Shown: positions 26,169 through 34,243 of the stretch, piece by piece | Position numbering within the stretch: position 1 is the stretch's first letter | Layout: every line of letters starts with the position of its first letter | Source: Pseudomonas entomophila | Lineage (GTDB): Bacteria > Pseudomonadota > Gammaproteobacteria > Pseudomonadales > Pseudomonadaceae | Reading direction: 5' to 3' | NCBI RefSeq assembly: GCF_023277925.1 | Contig: NZ_CP063832.1 | Span: 2,079,001-2,143,000, forward strand | DNA: 64,000 bases | Program-made: the position numbers and the translations under genes | The notes under the pieces: model-generated | Told to the model about the DNA's origin: nothing | Seen by the model: only the letters and a program-made list of their open reading frames with translations | Databases searched by the model: none

Positions 26169-26399
26169 TCACACTTCCTTGAACGTGGCGGCTGCGCCAC
26201 CCACGCCGCCACCCAAGGTGAGGCACTCGACGGAAATCTGCGGGCGATTGCCGTCTCGCAAGGTGTAGCGGTCGCCGACGACGAGCGTCTGCCCAGCCGC
26301 ATTCACACAGTTGGGTACCGCATAGTTCTGGTTACCCCCTGTGTAGGCATTACCGGTTGCAACCACTTTGTTCAGCGCGGCGCTATAAACATCAGTCAT
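26169..26399 (-). CDS. Small uncharacterised protein of the 26-29 kb cluster
   Basis: 76 residues beginning MTDVYSAALNKVVATGNAY, with GGAAGG 9 bp before ATG. No signal peptide or membrane segment. Two cysteines (VPNCVNAAGQ, SVECLTLGGG), a glycine-rich tail GGGVGGAAATFKEV, and mostly beta-strand propensity. Not recognised. It has its own copy of the 19-bp cluster motif about 100 bp upstream, which points to co-regulation with the two genes further right. It is bounded at its 3' end by a stem-loop. Confidence 0.65.
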   Translation of the reverse strand: MTDVYSAALNKVVATGNAYTGGNQNYAVPNCVNAAGQTLVVGDRYTLRDGNRPQISVECLTLGGGVGGAAATFKEV

Positions 26400-26495
26400 G
26401 TTGGTTTCCTTCCCTGTCTCATTGATGGATGCAGGTGACGGTGCTGGATGTACCGCTACCCACGCCCTGACAGTACTTCGCCCACCCCACCTGAG

Positions 26496-26514
26496 TAAGT
26501 ATCGATACCGTAAC
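26496..26514 (-). promoter_or_regulatory. Copy A of the 19-bp cluster motif
   Basis: TAAGTATCGATACCGTAAC on the + strand, 97 bp upstream of the 76-residue gene's start. Matches copies B and C at 16 or more of 19 positions. Its centre GTATCGATAC is a perfect palindrome. Confidence 0.65.
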
Positions 26515-26523
26515 CCCGGCCAC

Positions 26524-27309
26524 TCAGGATTGCGGGGGGTAGTTCCCCGCCACGAAAGCATTGATCGACACATCGAAATAGACGCTTTGCGGGCTCGATG
26601 CGCTCAAGGTCACCACCGTGTAACGGCCAATCTGCAACGTCGCGTTGGCCGACAGCTGCGCCGACTTGCTCATCGTCTGGGGCGCCACCGGCCGCAGCAT
26701 GCTCACGGGCAGTACCGTGCCCGACGGGACATTGCTGGCCACGAACACCCAGACCGTCGGCGCGAGGACCTGGGTGTAACGTGTCTGGAAAGGGTTGAGG
26801 CTGTTGTAATTGACGGGTGAAGGGCTATCGGGCTTCTCGTCACCGTTCTGGTAGATGAAACTCGCCGCGCCCGTGACCACGGGCTGGGCATTCGGCGGCG
26901 CGTCGTAATACATGCCGATGTACCCCGCCAAGCCAGTGCCATCGCCGTTCACCTGCACGCCATCGAAGCTGTAGGTATTACCTGCCAGCGCCTCGGACCA
27001 GGGCCCCAGCGTCAGTGTGCCTGGGTACGCCACCGCGCCATGGGACACATAGGCCACGCGGGTGGTGTCGAACAACAGCGTGGTCTGGTCGGCAATCGGT
27101 TGCAGGGTGTAGGCCGCCACGACATTGCCGCCCTCGGAGGCAGGGTCAGGCAGCACCACGACGATGTACTGGTTGTTGTCGACCAGGAACTTCCTGGCGT
27201 CGTAGTCGACATTCAGGTTCAACTGCAGCGTCCCTGCGCGGCATGGCGGCGGCGCAAGCATACCCAGCAGCCAGGCGAAGGTCAGACACATCAATCCGGA
27301 TCGATTCAT
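26524..27309 (-). CDS. Secreted beta-rich protein of unknown function
   Basis: 261 residues with a Sec signal peptide (NRSGLMCLTFAWLLGMLAPP, cleavage after about PCRAG). The mature part is almost wholly beta-strand: LQLNLNVDYDARKFLVDNNQ, YIVVVLPDPASEGGNVV, TLTLGPWSEALAGNTYSFDG, ending YFDVSINAFVAGNYPPQS. No known domain recognised. It follows the 242-residue gene after an intrinsic terminator, suggesting reduced expression by read-through. Start ATG at 27309 sits after GGGAG. Likely partner of the neighbouring 242-residue protein. Confidence 0.75.
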   Translation of the reverse strand: MNRSGLMCLTFAWLLGMLAPPPCRAGTLQLNLNVDYDARKFLVDNNQYIVVVLPDPASEGGNVVAAYTLQPIADQTTLLFDTTRVAYVSHGAVAYPGTLTLGPWSEALAGNTYSFDGVQVNGDGTGLAGYIGMYYDAPPNAQPVVTGAASFIYQNGDEKPDSPSPVNYNSLNPFQTRYTQVLAPTVWVFVASNVPSGTVLPVSMLRPVAPQTMSKSAQLSANATLQIGRYTVVTLSASSPQSVYFDVSINAFVAGNYPPQS

Positions 27310-27321
27310 TGGTTTCTCCCA

Positions 27322-27360
27322 AGAAAAACACCCGTATCCACCAAGGGCGGATACGGGTGT
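27322..27360 (-). terminator. Strong intrinsic terminator between two cluster genes
   Basis: Perfect 12-bp arms ACACCCGTATCC / GGATACGGGTGT around a 9-base loop; in the minus-strand message the stem is followed by UUUUUCUU. It begins 22 bp after the 242-residue gene stop and lies just before the 261-residue gene, so it would set the ratio between the two proteins. Confidence 0.85.
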
Positions 27361-27382
27361 CATGGCATCAAGCGATGTGCTT

Positions 27383-28111
27383 TCAGCTGCCTGAGTTGAC
27401 GATGGTGCCGATCGTCGAACCGGAGCTCACCGGCTGTACTGCTGGGGTATTGGGCAGGTTGGTGATCGCGAAGGTACTGGCCAGAACCTGCAGATCGTAT
27501 TCGATGGTGCTGGCGTTGAAGGAGAACGTGCAGCCAGGCGCCGAAACGCTGGCCTGGACGTTACCCGACTGCAGGCTCTGTTGCGCCGCCACCATCAGGA
27601 TGGTGTCCAGTGGCTTCATCATGATCGAACCTTGTGGGTTCAGGGTGAAGGCGCAGAACGGCAGGTACTGGCTACCGTTCGGTGTGTTGACCAGGCCAGC
27701 AAGGCCTACGGTCAAGGGTGGGGTCCCGGACGGCCGGTTGTTGAACAACCCCAGGCTGTCGGCAGGCACGCCCGACACGCCGCCCGACACGAAGCTGCCG
27801 TCGGGGTTGAAGGTCTGCGCGCTGCCCAGCGACAACTCAGCGGAAATGGACTGCATCTGGATCGTGGTGTTGGCCGCGATGTTGCCTTGCGTGGTGACGT
27901 AGATCTTGTATTGCGGGGTGTACTCGATGTCGACCAGCCCGAACATCGAGCCGAACGGCACGGAGAACCAAGTAGGCACACCGGCGGTGAGCTGGTTTGG
28001 CCCTACCGCGCCCTTGTAGGCCATCAGGCTGTAGCCTTGGTTTTGCAATGCGCTGAGCACCGCCTTCTGGTCGGCCGAAGTAAAATCAAAATCCATGGAG
28101 AACGTGGTCAT
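27383..28111 (-). CDS. Uncharacterised 242-residue beta-rich protein
   Basis: No signal peptide; begins TTFSMDFDFTSADQKAVLSA after Met. AGGTG precedes ATG at 28111 by 5 bp. Aromatic and beta-rich stretches (VPTWFSVPFGSMFGLVDIEY, YKIYVTTQGNIAANTTIQMQ) followed by a Gly/Ser/Pro-rich middle (GSFVSGGVSGVPADSLG) and a strand-rich end. The alternating hydrophobic strands and amphipathic N-terminus would fit a self-assembling or inclusion-body protein, or a membrane-active one; this is inference. First gene after motif B. Confidence 0.75.
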   Translation of the reverse strand: MTTFSMDFDFTSADQKAVLSALQNQGYSLMAYKGAVGPNQLTAGVPTWFSVPFGSMFGLVDIEYTPQYKIYVTTQGNIAANTTIQMQSISAELSLGSAQTFNPDGSFVSGGVSGVPADSLGLFNNRPSGTPPLTVGLAGLVNTPNGSQYLPFCAFTLNPQGSIMMKPLDTILMVAAQQSLQSGNVQASVSAPGCTFSFNASTIEYDLQVLASTFAITNLPNTPAVQPVSSGSTIGTIVNSGS

Positions 28112-28256
28112 GGTGTCACCTGTCATTCCTTAACGCCTTGATGTATGTCAGCCGTTTATGTTCCCGGCTAACGACCTGAGTCACCGAAGAGCAACTTTCT
28201 ATCCTTGGCTTTCCTTGTGACTCAGGGTGGAGCGTAAATATAATCTGGCCATTCAA

Positions 28257-28275
28257 TAAGTAGCGTTACCGTAAC
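28257..28275 (-). promoter_or_regulatory. Copy B of the 19-bp cluster motif
   Basis: TAAGTAGCGTTACCGTAAC on the + strand, 146 bp upstream of the 242-residue gene and 17 bp downstream of the regulator stop. On the minus strand it contains the inverted repeat GTTAC-G-GTAAC. Confidence 0.65.
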
Positions 28276-28291
28276 TAAAAGCCCCCCTTAG

Positions 28292-29071
28292 TTACATGTT
28301 CAAGCACATCCGCTCCTGCTGCGAAGCACCGAGAAATGCCTGTAGCGCCTGGCAGATGGAGGACGCCAAGGCTTCCTGGTGGGTGATTTCCAGGTAAGCC
28401 TCGCCGTTGAACTGCTCCGACCAGGTCACGCAACCGGTGGCCGTTTCGATCAAACGGACGCTGGTGCGGATGCGTTGCGCATCGACATGCACGCTGCCCT
28501 CCAGGCGATGCCCGCCGGCCATGGGTTGCGGTGCCATACCAACAGGCTCGACGATGATGCGCCGGCCCAGGTTCTTGTACAGCAGGTGCGTCAGCTCCTC
28601 ATGCAGCCCCAAGGCGAAACACTCCCACTCGGCGGCTTGCGCCACGCATTTGAAAGGGCAGATGGAAAAGGCACTGCCTTGCTCAAAACCACAGGTAACC
28701 GGGCGCAGGCGCCGAAACACAGGCATGTAGCAACCCAGCGGCACGACGATCTCGAGCGCGGCGGTGTTGTTCCCCACGGCGTAGTAGTGCTTGAGCTTGG
28801 CCCGCAACCGCCCCACCTGGACACGGACCACCGGATCCTCTCCCGGGCTGTAGTTCTGGGGGTCGCGGTCGAACACCCCGATACCAATGGCGTACTCGCT
28901 GGTGTCGCGGGCGCATTCCTTGAGTGCCTGCTCCACCAGGTAATCCAACAGCCGGCTCATGCGTGGCGACTTTCTGAAAGTCGCGCTCGCCAACAGCGCG
29001 TCCTTCGCGGACCTGACTTCATCTACCGCCACAAGGTCCCGACCTTCTTGTTTGCCCTGCACTTCAGCCAT
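28292..29071 (-). CDS. Winged-helix regulator with TolB/FlgO-like domain
   Basis: 259 residues. Residues 25-125 match the winged-helix module found at the start of many adenylate-cyclase/TPR regulators: SATFRKSPRMSRLLDYLVEQ, EYAIGIGVFDRDPQNYSPGE, DPVVRVQVGRLRAKLKHYY and VPLGCYMPVFR. Residues 185-240 look like the TolB N-terminal/FlgO-like fold (GSVHVDAQRIRTSVRLIETA, VTWSEQFNGE). No cyclase or TPR part follows. AAAGGA lies about 10 bp before ATG at 29071. It has motif copy C in its own upstream region, so it is the likely autoregulated controller of the three genes to its left. Confidence 0.75.
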   Translation of the reverse strand: MAEVQGKQEGRDLVAVDEVRSAKDALLASATFRKSPRMSRLLDYLVEQALKECARDTSEYAIGIGVFDRDPQNYSPGEDPVVRVQVGRLRAKLKHYYAVGNNTAALEIVVPLGCYMPVFRRLRPVTCGFEQGSAFSICPFKCVAQAAEWECFALGLHEELTHLLYKNLGRRIIVEPVGMAPQPMAGGHRLEGSVHVDAQRIRTSVRLIETATGCVTWSEQFNGEAYLEITHQEALASSICQALQAFLGASQQERMCLNM

Positions 29072-29492
29072 GGCATGAATTTCCTTTGCGTCCTTACATG
29101 GAAAAGTTGCCTGTATGCCGAGTGGCTTTGTTCGATACATCCCTGGGCAGCACTGCACTCGCCACACAGCATTATTTAGAAACATCGGCTCCGTTTTTAT
29201 ATTCGAGAAGTTCCGACAACCGCGGAAGCCGCACAACTTCCAGCGGTGCCTGACAGGCTAACGGTGCGCGCAGTAACCTATAAGTATCGTTACCGTAGCG
29301 CGGAAGTTGCCTGGCCTGGCGCCCGCGGCGGGTGGCGCATTTTTATCCAGGCCGCTGTGGTGGCCCGGGCACCACCCTGTGTATGCTGTCCCCCGCGCGG
29401 CGAACGGAATCCCGGGCTGGCCTGCAGGAGCGCTCAAGCCACCCCACGCGATCGGGCCATGATCGAGCACTTTGTGACGGACGCCCCGCCCT
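29072..29492. other. Intergenic region upstream of the cluster regulator
   Basis: 421 bp with no convincing gene. It holds motif copy C and, next to it, CAGTAACCTATAAG, which partly repeats the motif's GTAAC half. The right part presumably contains the diguanylate cyclase promoter; no clear sigma-70 boxes were identified. Confidence 0.5.
29281..29299 (-). promoter_or_regulatory. Copy C of the 19-bp cluster motif
   Basis: TAAGTATCGTTACCGTAGC on the + strand, 210 bp upstream of the winged-helix regulator's start. Same orientation as copies A and B relative to the genes read leftward. Confidence 0.65.
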
Positions 29493-30356
29493 ATGCCCGT
29501 TGACTTGCAAGCGCTCTACCCCAAGCTGATCCACCTGATGCTGGATACCGTGTTCGTGGTCGACCGGCACGACACCATCGTGTTCGTCAGCAATGCCTGC
29601 GAGGCGCTGCTCGGCTACCAGGCCGACGAGCTGACCGGTACCCCGATTACCCGCTACATGCACCCCGACGACCTGGAGGCCACCCGCGCCTCGATCGTCA
29701 AGGTCATGGGCGGCACGCCCCACTTCGATTTTCGCAACCGCTATGTGCGCAAGGATGGCGGCATCGTGCATATCCTCTGGGCGGCGTTCTGGTCCGAAGA
29801 GGTGGGCGCGCGCATTGGCGTCGCGCGCAACATCACCGCCCTCGCCCAGGCCGAGCACGAACTGCGCTTCCTCGCCCACCACGACCCGCTGACCCAACTG
29901 ACCAACCGCTCGCTGTTCAATGACCGGCTGGCCTCGGCCCTGCGCGTGGCACATCGCCACCAGCGCAGATTGGCGCTGCTGTTCCTGGATATCAATGACT
30001 TCAAAGGCATAAATGATGGCCATGGACACGCGGCGGGCGATCGCGTGCTCTGCATGATCGCCCACCGCTTGCAGGCCTGTGTGCGCGAGGCGGACACGGT
30101 GGCGCGGATGGGTGGGGACGAGTTCATCGTGTTGTTGACGGATATCCCGTCAGATGCCGCCGTGCACGAGAAAGTGGAGCAGATTGCCTCGGCCATGGCC
30201 GAGCCGCTGGGTACTGAGTTCGGTGAGGTCAGAATGCCGTCCTGCAGTATCGGCTTGGCCTTCTACCCCGAGGATGGCGAGGACGCTGACACCTTGCTCA
30301 GCCATGCGGACAGCGACATGTACCGCAAGAAACGACACCGCGCCCGGGTGGGTTGA
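29493..30356 (+). CDS. PAS-GGDEF diguanylate cyclase
   Basis: 287 residues. N-terminal PAS domain (about 10-120: DTVFVVDRHDTIVFVSNACE, YVRKDGGIVHILWAAF, IGVARNITALAQAE) joined to a GGDEF domain (125-285). Active site RMGGDEFIVLL is intact, with substrate motif DINDFKGINDGHGHAAGDRV. An RxxD inhibitory site (READ) lies five residues before GGDEF, so product inhibition by cyclic di-GMP is expected. Soluble: no membrane segment. ATG at 29493 has a poor ribosome site. Not obviously linked to either neighbour. Confidence 0.92.
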   Translation: MPVDLQALYPKLIHLMLDTVFVVDRHDTIVFVSNACEALLGYQADELTGTPITRYMHPDDLEATRASIVKVMGGTPHFDFRNRYVRKDGGIVHILWAAFWSEEVGARIGVARNITALAQAEHELRFLAHHDPLTQLTNRSLFNDRLASALRVAHRHQRRLALLFLDINDFKGINDGHGHAAGDRVLCMIAHRLQACVREADTVARMGGDEFIVLLTDIPSDAAVHEKVEQIASAMAEPLGTEFGEVRMPSCSIGLAFYPEDGEDADTLLSHADSDMYRKKRHRARVG

Positions 30357-30366
30357 AGCGCCCGGC

Positions 30367-31008
30367 TCACCAGCGCAACAGGCGCGGCCCCAACGCAGCG
30401 CCGAGCAGCGTGGGCACCAGCATGCCCAGCAGGTACCACAGGCCCCAGAACGGCACGCCCATCTCCGGGCAATGCAGGCAGTACGCCAATGCCGCGGTGG
30501 CGCCGGCGAGCAACCCGCCCGCGGCGCCGGCCTGGCGCAGACGGGTCGGGGCGAGGCCACGCAACGCCCAGAACACGGCGATGAACACGGGTGTCGAAAG
30601 CAAGCTGATGTTCAGCGCGCAGGTACGCCAGGTGCGGCCAAAGATCAGGTCAGCCCGTGCCTCAGGTGGGGCGCCCTGCAAGCTGATGGCGGCGCCCAAC
30701 CAGACCAGCAGCAGCGGCACCCCCAGCAGCCCCCAGAGTGCGCCCCCTCTGACACCCGGCCGGGCCAATCGCTGCGTCAACCCCAGCCCCAGCAGCGCCA
30801 GGCTGGTGGGCAAGGCCACCTTGGCCCAGAACAATGGCGTGCGCGCCACCTCGGCCAGGTCGCTACGTACCCCGTAGAGCGCCACGGTCAGCAACAGCGC
30901 GCCCAGCATGCCGGCGAGCAGCGCCAACCCCAAGCCCCGCGCCAGTGCATGGCGGTCTACCGGCCCCTGCGCGGTGGCCAGCAGGCTGATCAGTTCATTG
31001 GTCTTCAT
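30367..31008 (-). CDS. nrsF: NrsF-like anti-sigma factor (DUF1109)
   Basis: 213-residue inner-membrane protein with six helices, typical of the DUF1109/NrsF anti-sigma family (MKTNELISLLATAQGPVDRH at the N-terminus; TCALNISLLSTPVFIAVFWA and CLHCPEMGVPFW in later segments). The cysteine pair in CLHCPE and Cys near TCALN are the likely metal or oxidation sensor. It would sequester the ECF sigma factor encoded just upstream; the two genes overlap by 14 bp. Signal in the related Caulobacter system is excess copper or chromate. Confidence 0.85.
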   Translation of the reverse strand: MKTNELISLLATAQGPVDRHALARGLGLALLAGMLGALLLTVALYGVRSDLAEVARTPLFWAKVALPTSLALLGLGLTQRLARPGVRGGALWGLLGVPLLLVWLGAAISLQGAPPEARADLIFGRTWRTCALNISLLSTPVFIAVFWALRGLAPTRLRQAGAAGGLLAGATAALAYCLHCPEMGVPFWGLWYLLGMLVPTLLGAALGPRLLRW

Positions 31009-31558
31009 CTTTGCCTTTACCTCGAATCAACCTGCCCAAAGCCTTGAGGCCCCGGTGGATGCCCACCTTCACCGCCGAACTGGAAAGCCCGGTGATCCGT
31101 GCGGCCTCCTCCACCGACAGGCCCTCCAGCTTGACGTGCACGATGGGCAAGCGCTGACGATCCGGCAGTTGCCCGAGCAGTTTGCCCAGGTCCCGGCTGG
31201 CCTGGGCGGGTTCTTCGTCACTGACGGCGAACAGTTCGCTGTCATCCTCCAGCGCATCGTGCCGCGCCTCATGGCGGGCGTGGCTGCGCAGGTGGTCGGC
31301 CAGCTTGTAGCGGGCGATCGCCTGCACCCAGGCGGTGAGCGGCTGCTGCGCCTGGTAGGTGTGGCGCGCATTGTGCACCGCCAGCAGCACCTCCTGCAGC
31401 AAGTCCTCGACCTCGGCCGGGTGCTGAGGCAGGCGCCGCCGCAAGAAACCGCGCACATGGGCTGCCAATGCCGTAAGGAACTGGCGATAGGCAAGCGCAT
31501 CGCCGGCCAGCCCTTGCAGCAGCAGAGCCTGCAAGTGCGATTCGCGAGTGCTGAGCAC
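30995..31558 (-). CDS. sigF: ECF sigma factor of the SigF type
   Basis: About 187 residues from GTG at 31558. Region 2 (AEVEDLLQEVLLAVHNARHTYQAQ, WVQAIARYKLADHLR) and region 4 (LPDRQRLPIVHVKLEGLSVEE, SSAVKVGIHRGLKAL) are both present. An ATG eight codons earlier (31582) is in frame, but the element matching its own promoter (-10 CGAA at 31573-31576) lies inside those codons, so a message from that promoter would lack the ATG; GTG is therefore chosen. Overlaps nrsF. Directs the sigma regulon that includes the divergent bufferin operon. Confidence 0.82.
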   Translation of the reverse strand: MLSTRESHLQALLLQGLAGDALAYRQFLTALAAHVRGFLRRRLPQHPAEVEDLLQEVLLAVHNARHTYQAQQPLTAWVQAIARYKLADHLRSHARHEARHDALEDDSELFAVSDEEPAQASRDLGKLLGQLPDRQRLPIVHVKLEGLSVEEAARITGLSSSAVKVGIHRGLKALGRLIRGKGKDEDQ

Positions 31559-31572
31559 GTCCTGTGAATTAG

Positions 31573-31598
31573 TTCGTTGCATCGTCCGCCTGGGTTAC
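31573..31598 (-). promoter_or_regulatory. ECF (SigF-type) autoregulatory promoter
   Basis: Minus strand GTAACC (31598-31593), 16-bp spacer, CGAA (31576-31573). Identical boxes and spacing to the promoter of the divergent operon at 31797. Confidence 0.75.
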
Positions 31599-31796
31599 AG
31601 CGTCGGTAGGATTCTTTTCATCCAAGCATCGCCACCGTACCGGGCGCAAGTGCCGGATGAACGGTGAAGCCGTCCAGATGCCCGCCTCAGGTTATGTGCG
31701 GGTACGCAGATCGCGCGCCGCGCGGGGCGCGCTCGACCTGATGGGCGCAGAAGATTTCAAGGCAATCGACCAAGAACAAAAAAATTTCCTGGCCCT

Positions 31797-31822
31797 GTAA
31801 CCCGACCCGCCTCCACCACGAA
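31797..31822 (+). promoter_or_regulatory. ECF (SigF-type) promoter of the bufferin operon
   Basis: GTAACC at 31797-31802, 16-bp spacer, CGAA at 31819-31822, 56 bp before the precursor start codon. Matches the promoter type described for Caulobacter SigF-controlled bufferin genes. Confidence 0.8.
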
Positions 31823-31878
31823 CTACTCCATGAGCCGCCGGTAAACCGCCTCGGCCACTTCCCCTGGAGCGCACTCTC

Positions 31879-32163
31879 ATGAAAACCCTCGCCCTCGCCT
31901 CTGCCGCCCTCGCCCTCGCCGCCCTTGCAGGCACCGTCATGGCCGACGACACCAAACCCGCCGGCACCGGCGCCACCATGGAGAAATGCTACGGCGTCGC
32001 CATGGCTGGCAAGAACGATTGCAAGGCCGGTGCCGGCACCACCTGCGCCGGCAGCGCCAAGAAAGACTACGACGGCATGCACTGGAAAAACGTCCCGACC
32101 GGCACCTGCACGTCGATCCAGACCCCCAACGGCATGGGCTCGCTCACCCCGATCAAGTCCTGA
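31879..32163 (+). CDS. bufA: Bufferin-type metallophore precursor (DUF2282, BufA1)
   Basis: 94-residue ribosomal precursor. Sec signal peptide ([20 protein letters not shown], cleavage after VMA) then a core with four cysteines: [38 protein letters not shown]. In characterised bufferins cysteines become thiooxazoles that chelate copper in the periplasm. CTGGAG lies 7 bp before ATG. First gene of an ECF-driven operon with the DUF692 modifying enzyme 16 bp downstream. The C-terminal MGSLTPIKS tail is typical of the family. Confidence 0.9.
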
Positions 32164-32179
32164 ACAGAGGCCACCGACC

Positions 32180-33013
32180 ATGAACGGGATCCCGACGATG
32201 GGTGCCGGGCTCGGGCTCAAGCCAGAGCACTATGCCCAGGCCTGGGCCTGCTGCGCCGACGGGCTGTGGTTCGAGGTGCATCCGGAAAACTACATGGTCG
32301 GCGGCCCACGCCTTGCCTGGCTGCGGCGGATGGCCGAGCGCCATCCGCTGTCGCTGCACGGTGTCGCGCTGTCACTGGCGGCGGACGCCGAACCGGATAT
32401 AGAGCACCTGCGCCGCCTGCGTCTGCTGGTCGAACAGGTGCGCCCGGCACTGGTGTCGGAACACCTGGCCTGGTCGACCTGGGGTGACCAGTATCACCCC
32501 GACCTGCTGCCCTTTCCCCGCAGTCACGAAGCGCTGGCCCGGATCAGCGCGAACATCCAGCGCACCCAGGAGGCATTGGGGCGCCCCATTTCCATCGAGA
32601 ACCCCAGCCACTATCTACACCTGGACGGCCACGACTGGGACGAGATCGACTTTCTCGGCGAACTGGTTCACCGCACCGGTTGCGGCCTGCTGCTGGACGT
32701 CAACAACGTGCACGTCAGTGCCCACAACCTCGGTTTCAGCGCGCCGGACTACCTCGCACGCTTTCCCGCCCAGGCCATCACCGAGGTACACCTGGCCGGC
32801 CACAGCCATGACGACCAGGCCGCTCTGCTGATCGACTCCCACGACGCCCGCATCGCCGAGCCGGTGTGGGCGTTGTACCGGCAACTGATCCAGCGGATCG
32901 GCCCTCGGCCGACCCTGATCGAACGCGACGGCAACATTCCCGCCTTCAACGAATTGCTGGCCGAGCGCGCCATCGCCCAGGCGACCCTCGACCGCGCCGG
33001 AGACCTGCCATGA
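32180..33013 (+). CDS. bufB: DUF692 multinuclear iron oxygenase, bufferin maturase (BufB)
   Basis: 277-residue TIM-barrel enzyme of the MbnB/TglH superfamily that installs heterocycles on precursor cysteines. Conserved segments holding metal-binding His, Glu, Asp and Asn: [55 protein letters not shown] and EVHLAGHSH. Acts in the cytoplasm before export. The stop overlaps the next gene (ATGA at 33010), so enzyme and partner protein are made together. Confidence 0.92.
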
Positions 33014-33765
33014 ACCTCAGCCTTGGCCAGTTCCAGGCCGCGTTCGTCGACGCCCTGTACCTGCGCCCTGCCCCACAACTGGCCGCACTCACCGGGCAAG
33101 CGGCGTTCACGGTATACCGCAACACCGTGCTGGCCGGCTGCGTCGACGCATTGCGGGCCAACTTCCCCAGCGTCGAGACCCTGGTGGGGCCTGAATGGAT
33201 GCACGCCGCCGCCACGGCCTACGCCCAGCAGTCGCCGCCCTGTGATCCTCGCCTGATCCGCTATGGCGCGGCGTTCCCGGCCTTTCTCGATGACCATCTG
33301 GCCCATCATGGCCTGGTTTACCTGGCAGATGTCGCGCGCCTGGACGTTGCCTGGACTGAAGCCTTCAGTGCGCCCGACGATCCTTGCCTGCAACTGGCCG
33401 AGCTGTCGGGCATGACTGCCAGTGACCTTGTTCTCAGCCACCTGCGCCCGCGGGCCAGCGTGCGCTGGCAGTGGTTCGATACGCACCCGGCCTACAGCCT
33501 CTGGCGCCACAGCCGCGAACACCTGCCCTGGCCAGCGGATCACCCCTGGGCCGCCGAAGGCGCTCTGTTCAGCGGTGATTGCGAGGGCGTCACCCACCAG
33601 GCGCTCAGCCTCGGCGGTTGCGCCTTCCTCGATGCCTGTGCCGCCGGGCAGCCGCTGGAGCAGGCTTCGCTGCACGCCGAACAGACCCAACCCAATCTGG
33701 ACTTCAACGACCTGCTCGGGCGGTTGTTGCAAGCCCGGGTCTTTCGCCCACTCACCTTCGCTTGA
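33010..33765 (+). CDS. bufC: DUF2063 partner protein of the DUF692 enzyme (BufC)
   Basis: 251 residues. N-terminal DUF2063 helical domain ([56 protein letters not shown]) as found beside DUF692 genes, where it is thought to recognise the precursor and present it, like MbnC. C-terminal half is beta-rich ([15 protein letters not shown]). Translation is coupled to bufB. Confidence 0.87.
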
Positions 33766-33775
33766 GGGAGCCGTC

Positions 33776-34243
33776 ATGGACATCACCCACGCCAGCGCGT
33801 CGCCCCGTGGCTTGCGCCAACACTGGAACCGCCTCGCCGACCGCCTGCAAGGGTTGTTGAGCGATAGCCTGTTGTGCCTGGTCGCTCGCCTGGGCATCGC
33901 CTCGATCTTCTTTCTGTCCGGGCGCACCAAGGTCGAAGGGCTGCTGACCATCACCCCCGGCACCTACGAGCTGTTCCAGAGTGACTACGCCCTGCCGCTG
34001 GTGTCGCCCTGGCTCGCAGCGCACCTGGCGACCTATGCCGAGCACCTGTTCCCGCTGCTGCTGGTGCTGGGCCTGTTCACCCGCCTGTCGGCGCTGGCCT
34101 TGCTGGGCATGACCACGGTGATCGAGGTCTTCGTCTACCCCGATGCCTGGCCTACCCACCTGTCGTGGGCCGGCCTGCTCCTTCTGCTGATTGCCCGGGG
34201 CGGTGGGGCGTTGTCGCTGGATCGAGTGTTGCGGTTGCGCTGA
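33776..34243 (+). CDS. DoxX family membrane protein of the bufferin operon
   Basis: 155 residues, about four helices: [20 protein letters not shown], then [40 protein letters not shown] and a last hydrophobic segment. DoxX proteins often end DUF2282-DUF692-DUF2063 operons; a role in redox or metal handling at the inner membrane is presumed. GAGGGAG lies before ATG at 33776. A REP pair follows and probably ends the operon. Confidence 0.85.

Follow-up and report, generated by a model that had tools for sequence, protein, structure and literature searches.

Four adjoining genes of Pseudomonas entomophila raise the question of which protein reads a 19-bp element repeated in front of three of them, and of what that element governs. 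They lie in a stretch of 64,000 nucleotides (assembly GCF_023277925.1, contig NZ_CP063832.1, positions 2,079,001 to 2,143,000), which was analysed as a whole and is called the window below. All four genes are on the minus strand and are transcribed in the order regulator, b242, 261-amino-acid (aa) protein and s75. A sequence-only reading of this DNA had recognised none of the three proteins it described, and indeed none of the four reaches a Pfam or NCBIfam cut-off. The form of the element, its restriction to this module and its co-occurrence with the regulator gene suggest that the latter probably encodes a dedicated one-component activator whose private regulon comprises a secreted protein and a pair made of one large and one small protein. 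The features of the module, in the direction of transcription, are the following:

29281..29299 (-), regulator-promoter box, which reads GCTACGGTAACGATACTTA along the gene
29255..29260 (-), predicted -10 of the regulator promoter, TAGCCT, at the fixed spacing
28292..29071 (-), regulator gene, 259 aa from its ATG, N-terminal winged helix and putative C-terminal TolB-like domain
28257..28275 (-), b242-promoter box, GTTACGGTAACGCTACTTA, immediately past the regulator stop codon
28231..28236 (-), predicted -10 of the b242 promoter, TACGCT
27383..28111 (-), b242 gene, 242-aa beta-rich protein, no signal peptide seen
27361-27327 (-), intrinsic terminator separating b242 from the 261-aa gene, 16-pair stem and T run
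26524..27309 (-), gene of the 261-aa protein, signal-peptide-like N-terminus (by eye)
26496..26514 (-), s75-promoter box, GTTACGGTATCGATACTTA, immediately past the stop codon of the 261-aa gene
26470..26475 (-), predicted -10 of the s75 promoter, TACTGT
26169..26399 (-), s75 gene, 76-aa small protein

The box TAAGTATCGTTACCGTAAC, searched with up to three mismatches, is found at 26496, 28257 and 29281, in the same orientation and with one mismatch each, while 100 dinucleotide shuffles of the window gave no match. It precedes the start codons of s75 (26399), b242 (28111) and the regulator (29071) by 97, 146 and 210 bp, respectively. Both the three near-identical elements and the 97-210 bp spacing of the sequence-only reading are thus confirmed; the length of the regulator, on the other hand, had to be corrected to that counted from its ATG. 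The b242 and s75 boxes sit immediately 3' of the preceding gene's stop codon and, as there is no box before the 261-aa gene, the four genes are served by three boxed promoters. The GC content of the module is 59.5% vs. 65.7% for the whole window.

Concerning the specificity of the box, the complete genome (5,755,740 bp) contains it exactly three times at up to three mismatches, each time at the module, vs. no match for the reversed pattern. Among 298 Pseudomonas genomes, GYTACNGTAACGMTACTTA has 12 exact matches, every one of them at the module of the seven genomes with a close regulator; of nine one-mismatch matches, eight are there too and the ninth is in G181. Of the 48 matches listed, 27 have two mismatches; these are scattered, include one in G186 and represent background, and the reversed pattern also gave many matches across the 298 genomes. 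With a loosened pattern, the exact matches in the own genome are again the three module sites, with one single-mismatch match among the places listed; at up to three mismatches, 77 and 87 matches were obtained vs. 452 and 421 for the control and, the counts being below the control, only the exact matches are informative. In this genome the motif is therefore found only at the module, and it is not the widespread promoter or repetitive extragenic palindromic (REP) fragment that it might have been.

When the sites are aligned in gene direction, their consensus is GYTACGGTAACGMTACTTA, i.e. a 5-mer repeated at 11 bp, followed by TAnnnT at a constant distance. Only the 19 motif columns and T39, A40 and T44 of TAnnnT exceed 0.9 bit among the 85 columns aligned (39 rows, some genomes appearing under two names and reverse-strand sites being included). 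The TAnnnT offset is identical in 17 of 20 sites of the seven genomes and one base longer in two, and the three window sites all conform to it. The repeated 5-mer is GHTAC (GYTAC, then GMTAC). Relative to ACTT, half-sites of the window clade are at -14 in 31 of 32 rows and at -3 in 30 of 32, in a set which likewise has some genomes under two names and includes reverse-strand sites. The sites of related genomes thus mark the box as a promoter element. It ends 20 bp upstream of the predicted -10; with TAnnnT taken as the -10, it spans about -51 to -33 of a sigma70-type promoter and is centred near -42. At four loci (L046, L069, L072 and L073), a second, divergent box overlaps the last one, so that the dyad beyond the 261-aa gene is longer.

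The regulator and b242 were searched for in the same 298 genomes. A close regulator (63-100% identity) and a close b242 (76-100%) are present in the same seven of them, and in all seven they are followed by the 261-aa gene and s75, arranged as in the window, the s75 of G189 being divergent (E-value (E) 4.6e-15). The sequence-only reading had staked its case on the four genes occurring together, and they do so in every genome with a close regulator. The close b242 was found in P. entomophila, P. fontis, P. viridiflava, P. farsensis, P. mosselii, P. veronii and Pseudomonas sp. W4I3. The module is patchy and occurs in some Pseudomonas of soil and plants. As a whole, strong regulator homologues (E<=7.4e-12) occur in 25 of the 298 genomes and adjoin a b242-family gene in all 25. 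This count excludes G169, where a 544-aa frame matches residues 18-121 at E 1.5e-9, as well as 16 genomes with weak partial matches (E 3.5e-5 to 9.5e-4). The b242 profile is positive in 27 genomes, namely these 25 and, with very divergent genes, G186 and G108, neither of which shows a regulator match at E<=0.001 or a box at the b242-like locus. Over 22 loci, regulator and b242 identities are correlated (r 0.94), mostly owing to the split between two clades; within clades, r is 0.72 and 0.75. As for the rows used, A7 is without L043 and other rows, and A1, A4, A5 and A8 are selected subsets. At class level, two of 369 genomes were positive, the own genome included; the 10 kb examined in the other one, G664, contain two divergent b242-like genes and lack a regulator. 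At L108:8791-10357, two very divergent b242-like genes stand in tandem close to genes identified by eye as glycine-cleavage genes, and both regulator and box are missing.

The second clade comprises 18 further genomes with a diverged regulator, 17 of them at 41-43% identity (37-41% in other alignments) and the last, G232, with a 35% match to a regulator cut by the contig end. In all 18, the regulator gene adjoins a distant b242 relative and is convergent with it. A second box, GTAACGCCAAGAYACTT, was found upstream of the 18 distant b242-type genes at up to four mismatches, with two more such matches elsewhere in the loci, and TAnnnT is at the same distance from ACTT in the 18 promoters; these were kept only with TAnnnT in a window around the expected place, a filter which all 18 locus boxes passed. 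Across the 298 genomes, 13 of 13 exact and four of eight one-mismatch matches to this box are at a b242-type locus, covering 17 of the 18 genomes. Half-sites such as GATAC, GTTAC and GTAAC stand 13 bp before ACTT in 18 of 18 promoters, 24 bp in nine and 35 bp in eight, and further ones reach about 67 bp. A small gene, c2 (78-82 aa), was detected by word search in 12 of the 18 loci. Its promoters have a half-site 23 bp before ACTT in 12 of 12 cases, with TAnnnT at the same distance in 11 and one base further in one; this spacing is partly by construction, because the promoters were sought as ACTT-N20-22-TAnnnT. No box was seen before the second-clade regulator genes (by eye, several starts being approximate). 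Regulator and site thus differ between the clades, with the design kept, and a diverged regulator accompanied by a diverged box of the same design lends support to the regulator-motif link, which the sequence-only reading had put forward as an inference and which the co-occurrence supports well.

What kind of regulator would read such a site? In the window regulator, the N-terminal part resembles Trans_reg_C (PF00486) at E 0.084, with 13.4 bits vs. a cut-off of 26.2; 12 of 13 homologues match at E<=1, the best at 0.0035, below the cut-off. The segment DPVVRxQxGRLRxKL is invariant in the regulators of both clades. The C-terminal part, which we take to be a TolB-like domain, matches only 5t11 and 5t10 in the PDB, at E about 1, and the only PADLOC match of the regulator is to HEC-01B at 0.015. 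No membrane segment is predicted, the top 19-residue mean hydropathy being 1.15, and no receiver, BTA or TPR family was matched in the 13 members scanned with Pfam at E<=1. In L043 (G190), the regulator gene has an in-frame TAG within its alignable 5' end, followed by a 246-aa open frame.

The regulatory principle itself is already known. CadC/ToxR-type membrane regulators combine an N-terminal winged helix with a C-terminal sensing domain, a layout which the window regulator would share, whereas it has no membrane segment. Winged-helix/TolB-like/TPR one-component proteins, such as WP_083948845.1 of Aminobacter, are also similar, with a winged helix followed by a region alike (the regulator profile matches that protein at 7e-15), but the window regulator has no TPR region and its gene adjoins those of its putative targets. 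PhoB/OmpR-type activators likewise have a winged-helix DNA-binding domain, and the pho box consists of tandem 11-nt direct repeats in target promoters, according to PMC4415409; the GYTAC/GMTAC repeats have the same 11-bp period. The window regulator differs from them in that no receiver domain, which would mark a two-component response regulator, was matched, in its sub-cut-off Trans_reg_C score, in its half-site and in its three-promoter regulon. Finally, AfsR, a Streptomyces antibiotic regulatory protein (SARP), has an OmpR-type winged helix and a C-terminal domain, and acts on direct repeats 11 or 22 bp apart in promoters with a poor -35, the afs box being centred at -29.5 with its 3' repeat 8 bp from the -10, as described in PMC10936776. 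The window box, centred near -42, a position typical of class II promoters, contrasts with the afs box in position, and the regulator has a putative TolB-like domain instead of a matched BTA domain. Compared with the pho box and the SARP repeats, GHTAC repeated 11 bp apart is what would be expected for tandem winged-helix binding.

The target proteins belong to a larger family. The b242 profile gave 568 database matches; among the 120 listed, no Pfam domain was found, and the named sources include Pseudomonas, Methylococcales, Chloroflexi, Spirulina, Microcoleus and Bacteroidota. In 33 of these 120 relatives (sorted by eye), an additional N-terminal domain is fused, 13 being of the c2 type and 20 of a type called M. 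The c2-type fusion domain has 55% identity with c2 over 76 residues, and its fusion to the b242 domain argues for the small and large proteins working together. The type M domain aligns colinearly with s75 (HHalign probability 54%, E 1.3e-4), and this analogy is no more than suggestive of s75 working with b242. In Pseudomonas, the pair is mostly encoded by separate genes, whereas Aminobacter, a bacterium of the Methylococcales, one Pseudomonas and metagenomes have it as a single fused protein; cyanobacteria, Chloroflexi and Bacteroidota have b242-family members without the small domain. Six Aminobacter plasmids carry a full-length type-M-like fusion at 52% identity, its domain being profile-checked on one of them, and a partial fused relative is carried by an Ensifer plasmid. 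On one Aminobacter plasmid (L109), the fused relative follows immediately on a helix-turn-helix gene and is 5 kb from a winged-helix/TPR regulator. As for s75, those of its 37 matches that bear an organism name, a minority, are all from Pseudomonas.

Attempts to assign b242 to a known fold or function gave little. The structure prediction that the sequence-only reading had called for was run for b242 with AlphaFold2, at low confidence (predicted local distance difference test (pLDDT) 51, predicted template modelling score 0.48), and the model had no significant match among PDB and viral structures, a result which is uninformative at this pLDDT; the model of the fused relative P0065 is good only over the first ~75 residues. 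By sequence, b242 has no PDB match at E<=1. Pfam matches of 52 family members are scattered and weak, the best (0.0034, in three members) being to Phage_fiber_2, an identity we do not believe, and the best PHROGs match is 0.0068, for one fused relative. Searched against PADLOC at E<=0.1, b242, s75 and the 261-aa protein gave no match, nor did three fused relatives. A phage, plasmid or defence origin was rejected, as no relative occurs in viral contigs, b242 itself is on no plasmid and PADLOC gave no match. A relationship of b242 with the 261-aa protein has no support either (HHalign probability 0.5%). It is a guess, made with little confidence, that the b242 pair may be an accessory beta-sandwich binding or effector protein located outside the cell or at its surface.

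The 261-aa protein has at least four database matches, and the best PDB match of its family by sequence is at E 0.98. Its start, judged by eye, is Sec-signal-peptide-like; the sequence-only reading had called one of the proteins secreted. The strong intrinsic terminator described between the 242- and 261-residue genes is likewise present: a stem occurs at this position in seven of seven module genomes, with 91.5% of cells paired vs. at most 59% in slid controls. Four of the 16 pairs have changes on both sides, and further pair types (9 vs. 7.7 in shuffles) are hardly better than chance. The secreted protein is probably made at a reduced level behind this conserved terminator, which may thereby control stoichiometry.

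Taken together, we infer a mechanism in which two molecules of the 259-aa regulator, arranged head to tail, would occupy the 19-bp box at its GYTAC/GMTAC repeats, spaced by 11 bp, on one DNA face. Centred about -42 and overlapping a poor -35 (TTA...), the bound protein would recruit sigma70 RNA polymerase to the conserved -10, TAnnnT. The genes thereby switched on in the window clade would be b242, s75 and usually that of the regulator itself, and partial read-through of the terminator from b242 would yield the secreted 261-aa protein. The b242 protein and its small partner (s75, or the 78-82-aa c2 in the other clade) would act as one large-plus-small unit, and the C-terminal domain of the regulator may sense the signal.

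Several observations weigh against this activator model. The sequence does not discriminate between activation and repression, and none of the 13 regulator members scanned reaches the Pfam cut-off for Trans_reg_C. The box core GTTACgGTAAC also reads as a 5-1-5 palindrome, so that a symmetric dimer is possible, and the last site of the four loci mentioned above has a longer dyad. Between clades, the repeats are shifted by one base relative to ACTT, and the -3 half-site is found in just four of 18 second-clade promoters. Autoregulation, as claimed by the sequence-only reading, holds in part: a box with up to two mismatches precedes the regulator gene in five of seven genomes, but it is weak in G024 (four mismatches) and absent at up to four mismatches in G189, and is thus not general. 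Finally, no recognisable s75 gene was found in L073 (P. veronii) and L072 (Pseudomonas sp. W4I3), and the likeness of s75 to the fusion domain is weak at the HHalign probability given above.

Four other explanations were weighed. Were the regulator a repressor, it would block the -35 from the box and the promoters would fire once the TolB-like domain meets its signal; the overlap of the box with the -35 position and a palindrome suited to a dimeric repressor favour such a scheme, whereas the promoters listed have a poor-looking -35 (TTA/TTC), a trait of activator-dependent promoters, and the second-clade half-sites up to about 67 bp before ACTT fit cooperative activation, so that it is unlikely. 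A factor encoded elsewhere might instead read the box, with the adjoining winged-helix gene hitchhiking. We regard this as very improbable, given that boxes and regulator occur together in 7/7 and 18/18 genomes and differ in step between the clades, and that L106-L108, with divergent b242-like genes and no adjoining regulator, have neither the first box (up to five mismatches) nor the second (up to three). As to the box being an ordinary repeat, i.e. a REP, a mobile element end or a piece of a housekeeping promoter, nothing more than the repetition itself speaks for it; with three copies in the genome, each upstream of a module gene, and exact matches in the 298 genomes at the module only, this candidate was rejected and retains next to no probability. 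More serious, though still somewhat unlikely, is the possibility that the small and large proteins have separate functions and share only a regulator: s75 has its own promoter and resembles the type-M fusion domain only weakly, against which stand the fusion of a c2-like domain to a b242-type domain in other bacteria and the similar fusion of the type-M domain. A dedicated activator with its private regulon is the reading we retain as the probable one.

With regard to the neighbouring genes, a PAS-GGDEF diguanylate cyclase gene (29493-30356) adjoins the module in the window and in L042 and L043, and is about 6 kb off in L044. The fused small domain may have a PilZ-like fold, and its coincidence with a neighbouring diguanylate cyclase may or may not be due to chance. 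Further on, 30367-34243 encodes an NrsF anti-sigma factor (PF06532), an extracytoplasmic function (ECF)-type sigma factor, a DUF2282 small protein, an enzyme of the MbnB/TglH type (PF05114, E 1.3e-94) for ribosomally synthesised and post-translationally modified peptides (RiPPs), and DUF2063 and DoxX proteins; this is presumably a bufferin-type copper RiPP operon with a sigma/anti-sigma pair, of a known kind.

The regulator type, the box, the target family, the pairing and its output appear to be undescribed in Pfam and NCBIfam and in the literature searched, part of which was judged by title and the start of the abstract. Tentatively, b242 and its small partner could form a new, widely spread two-part protein machine which, in Pseudomonas, would be under a soluble winged-helix/TolB-like activator of an undescribed type, reading 11-bp-phased sites and governing nothing else. 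The locus offers a complete testable unit (regulator, box, -10 and targets) for a nameless family with hundreds of members and, as the regulon looks private, knowing what the regulator senses would lead straight to the purpose of that family. The two clades, with their matched differences in regulator and box, also provide a natural pair for studying the co-evolution of winged-helix regulators and their sites.

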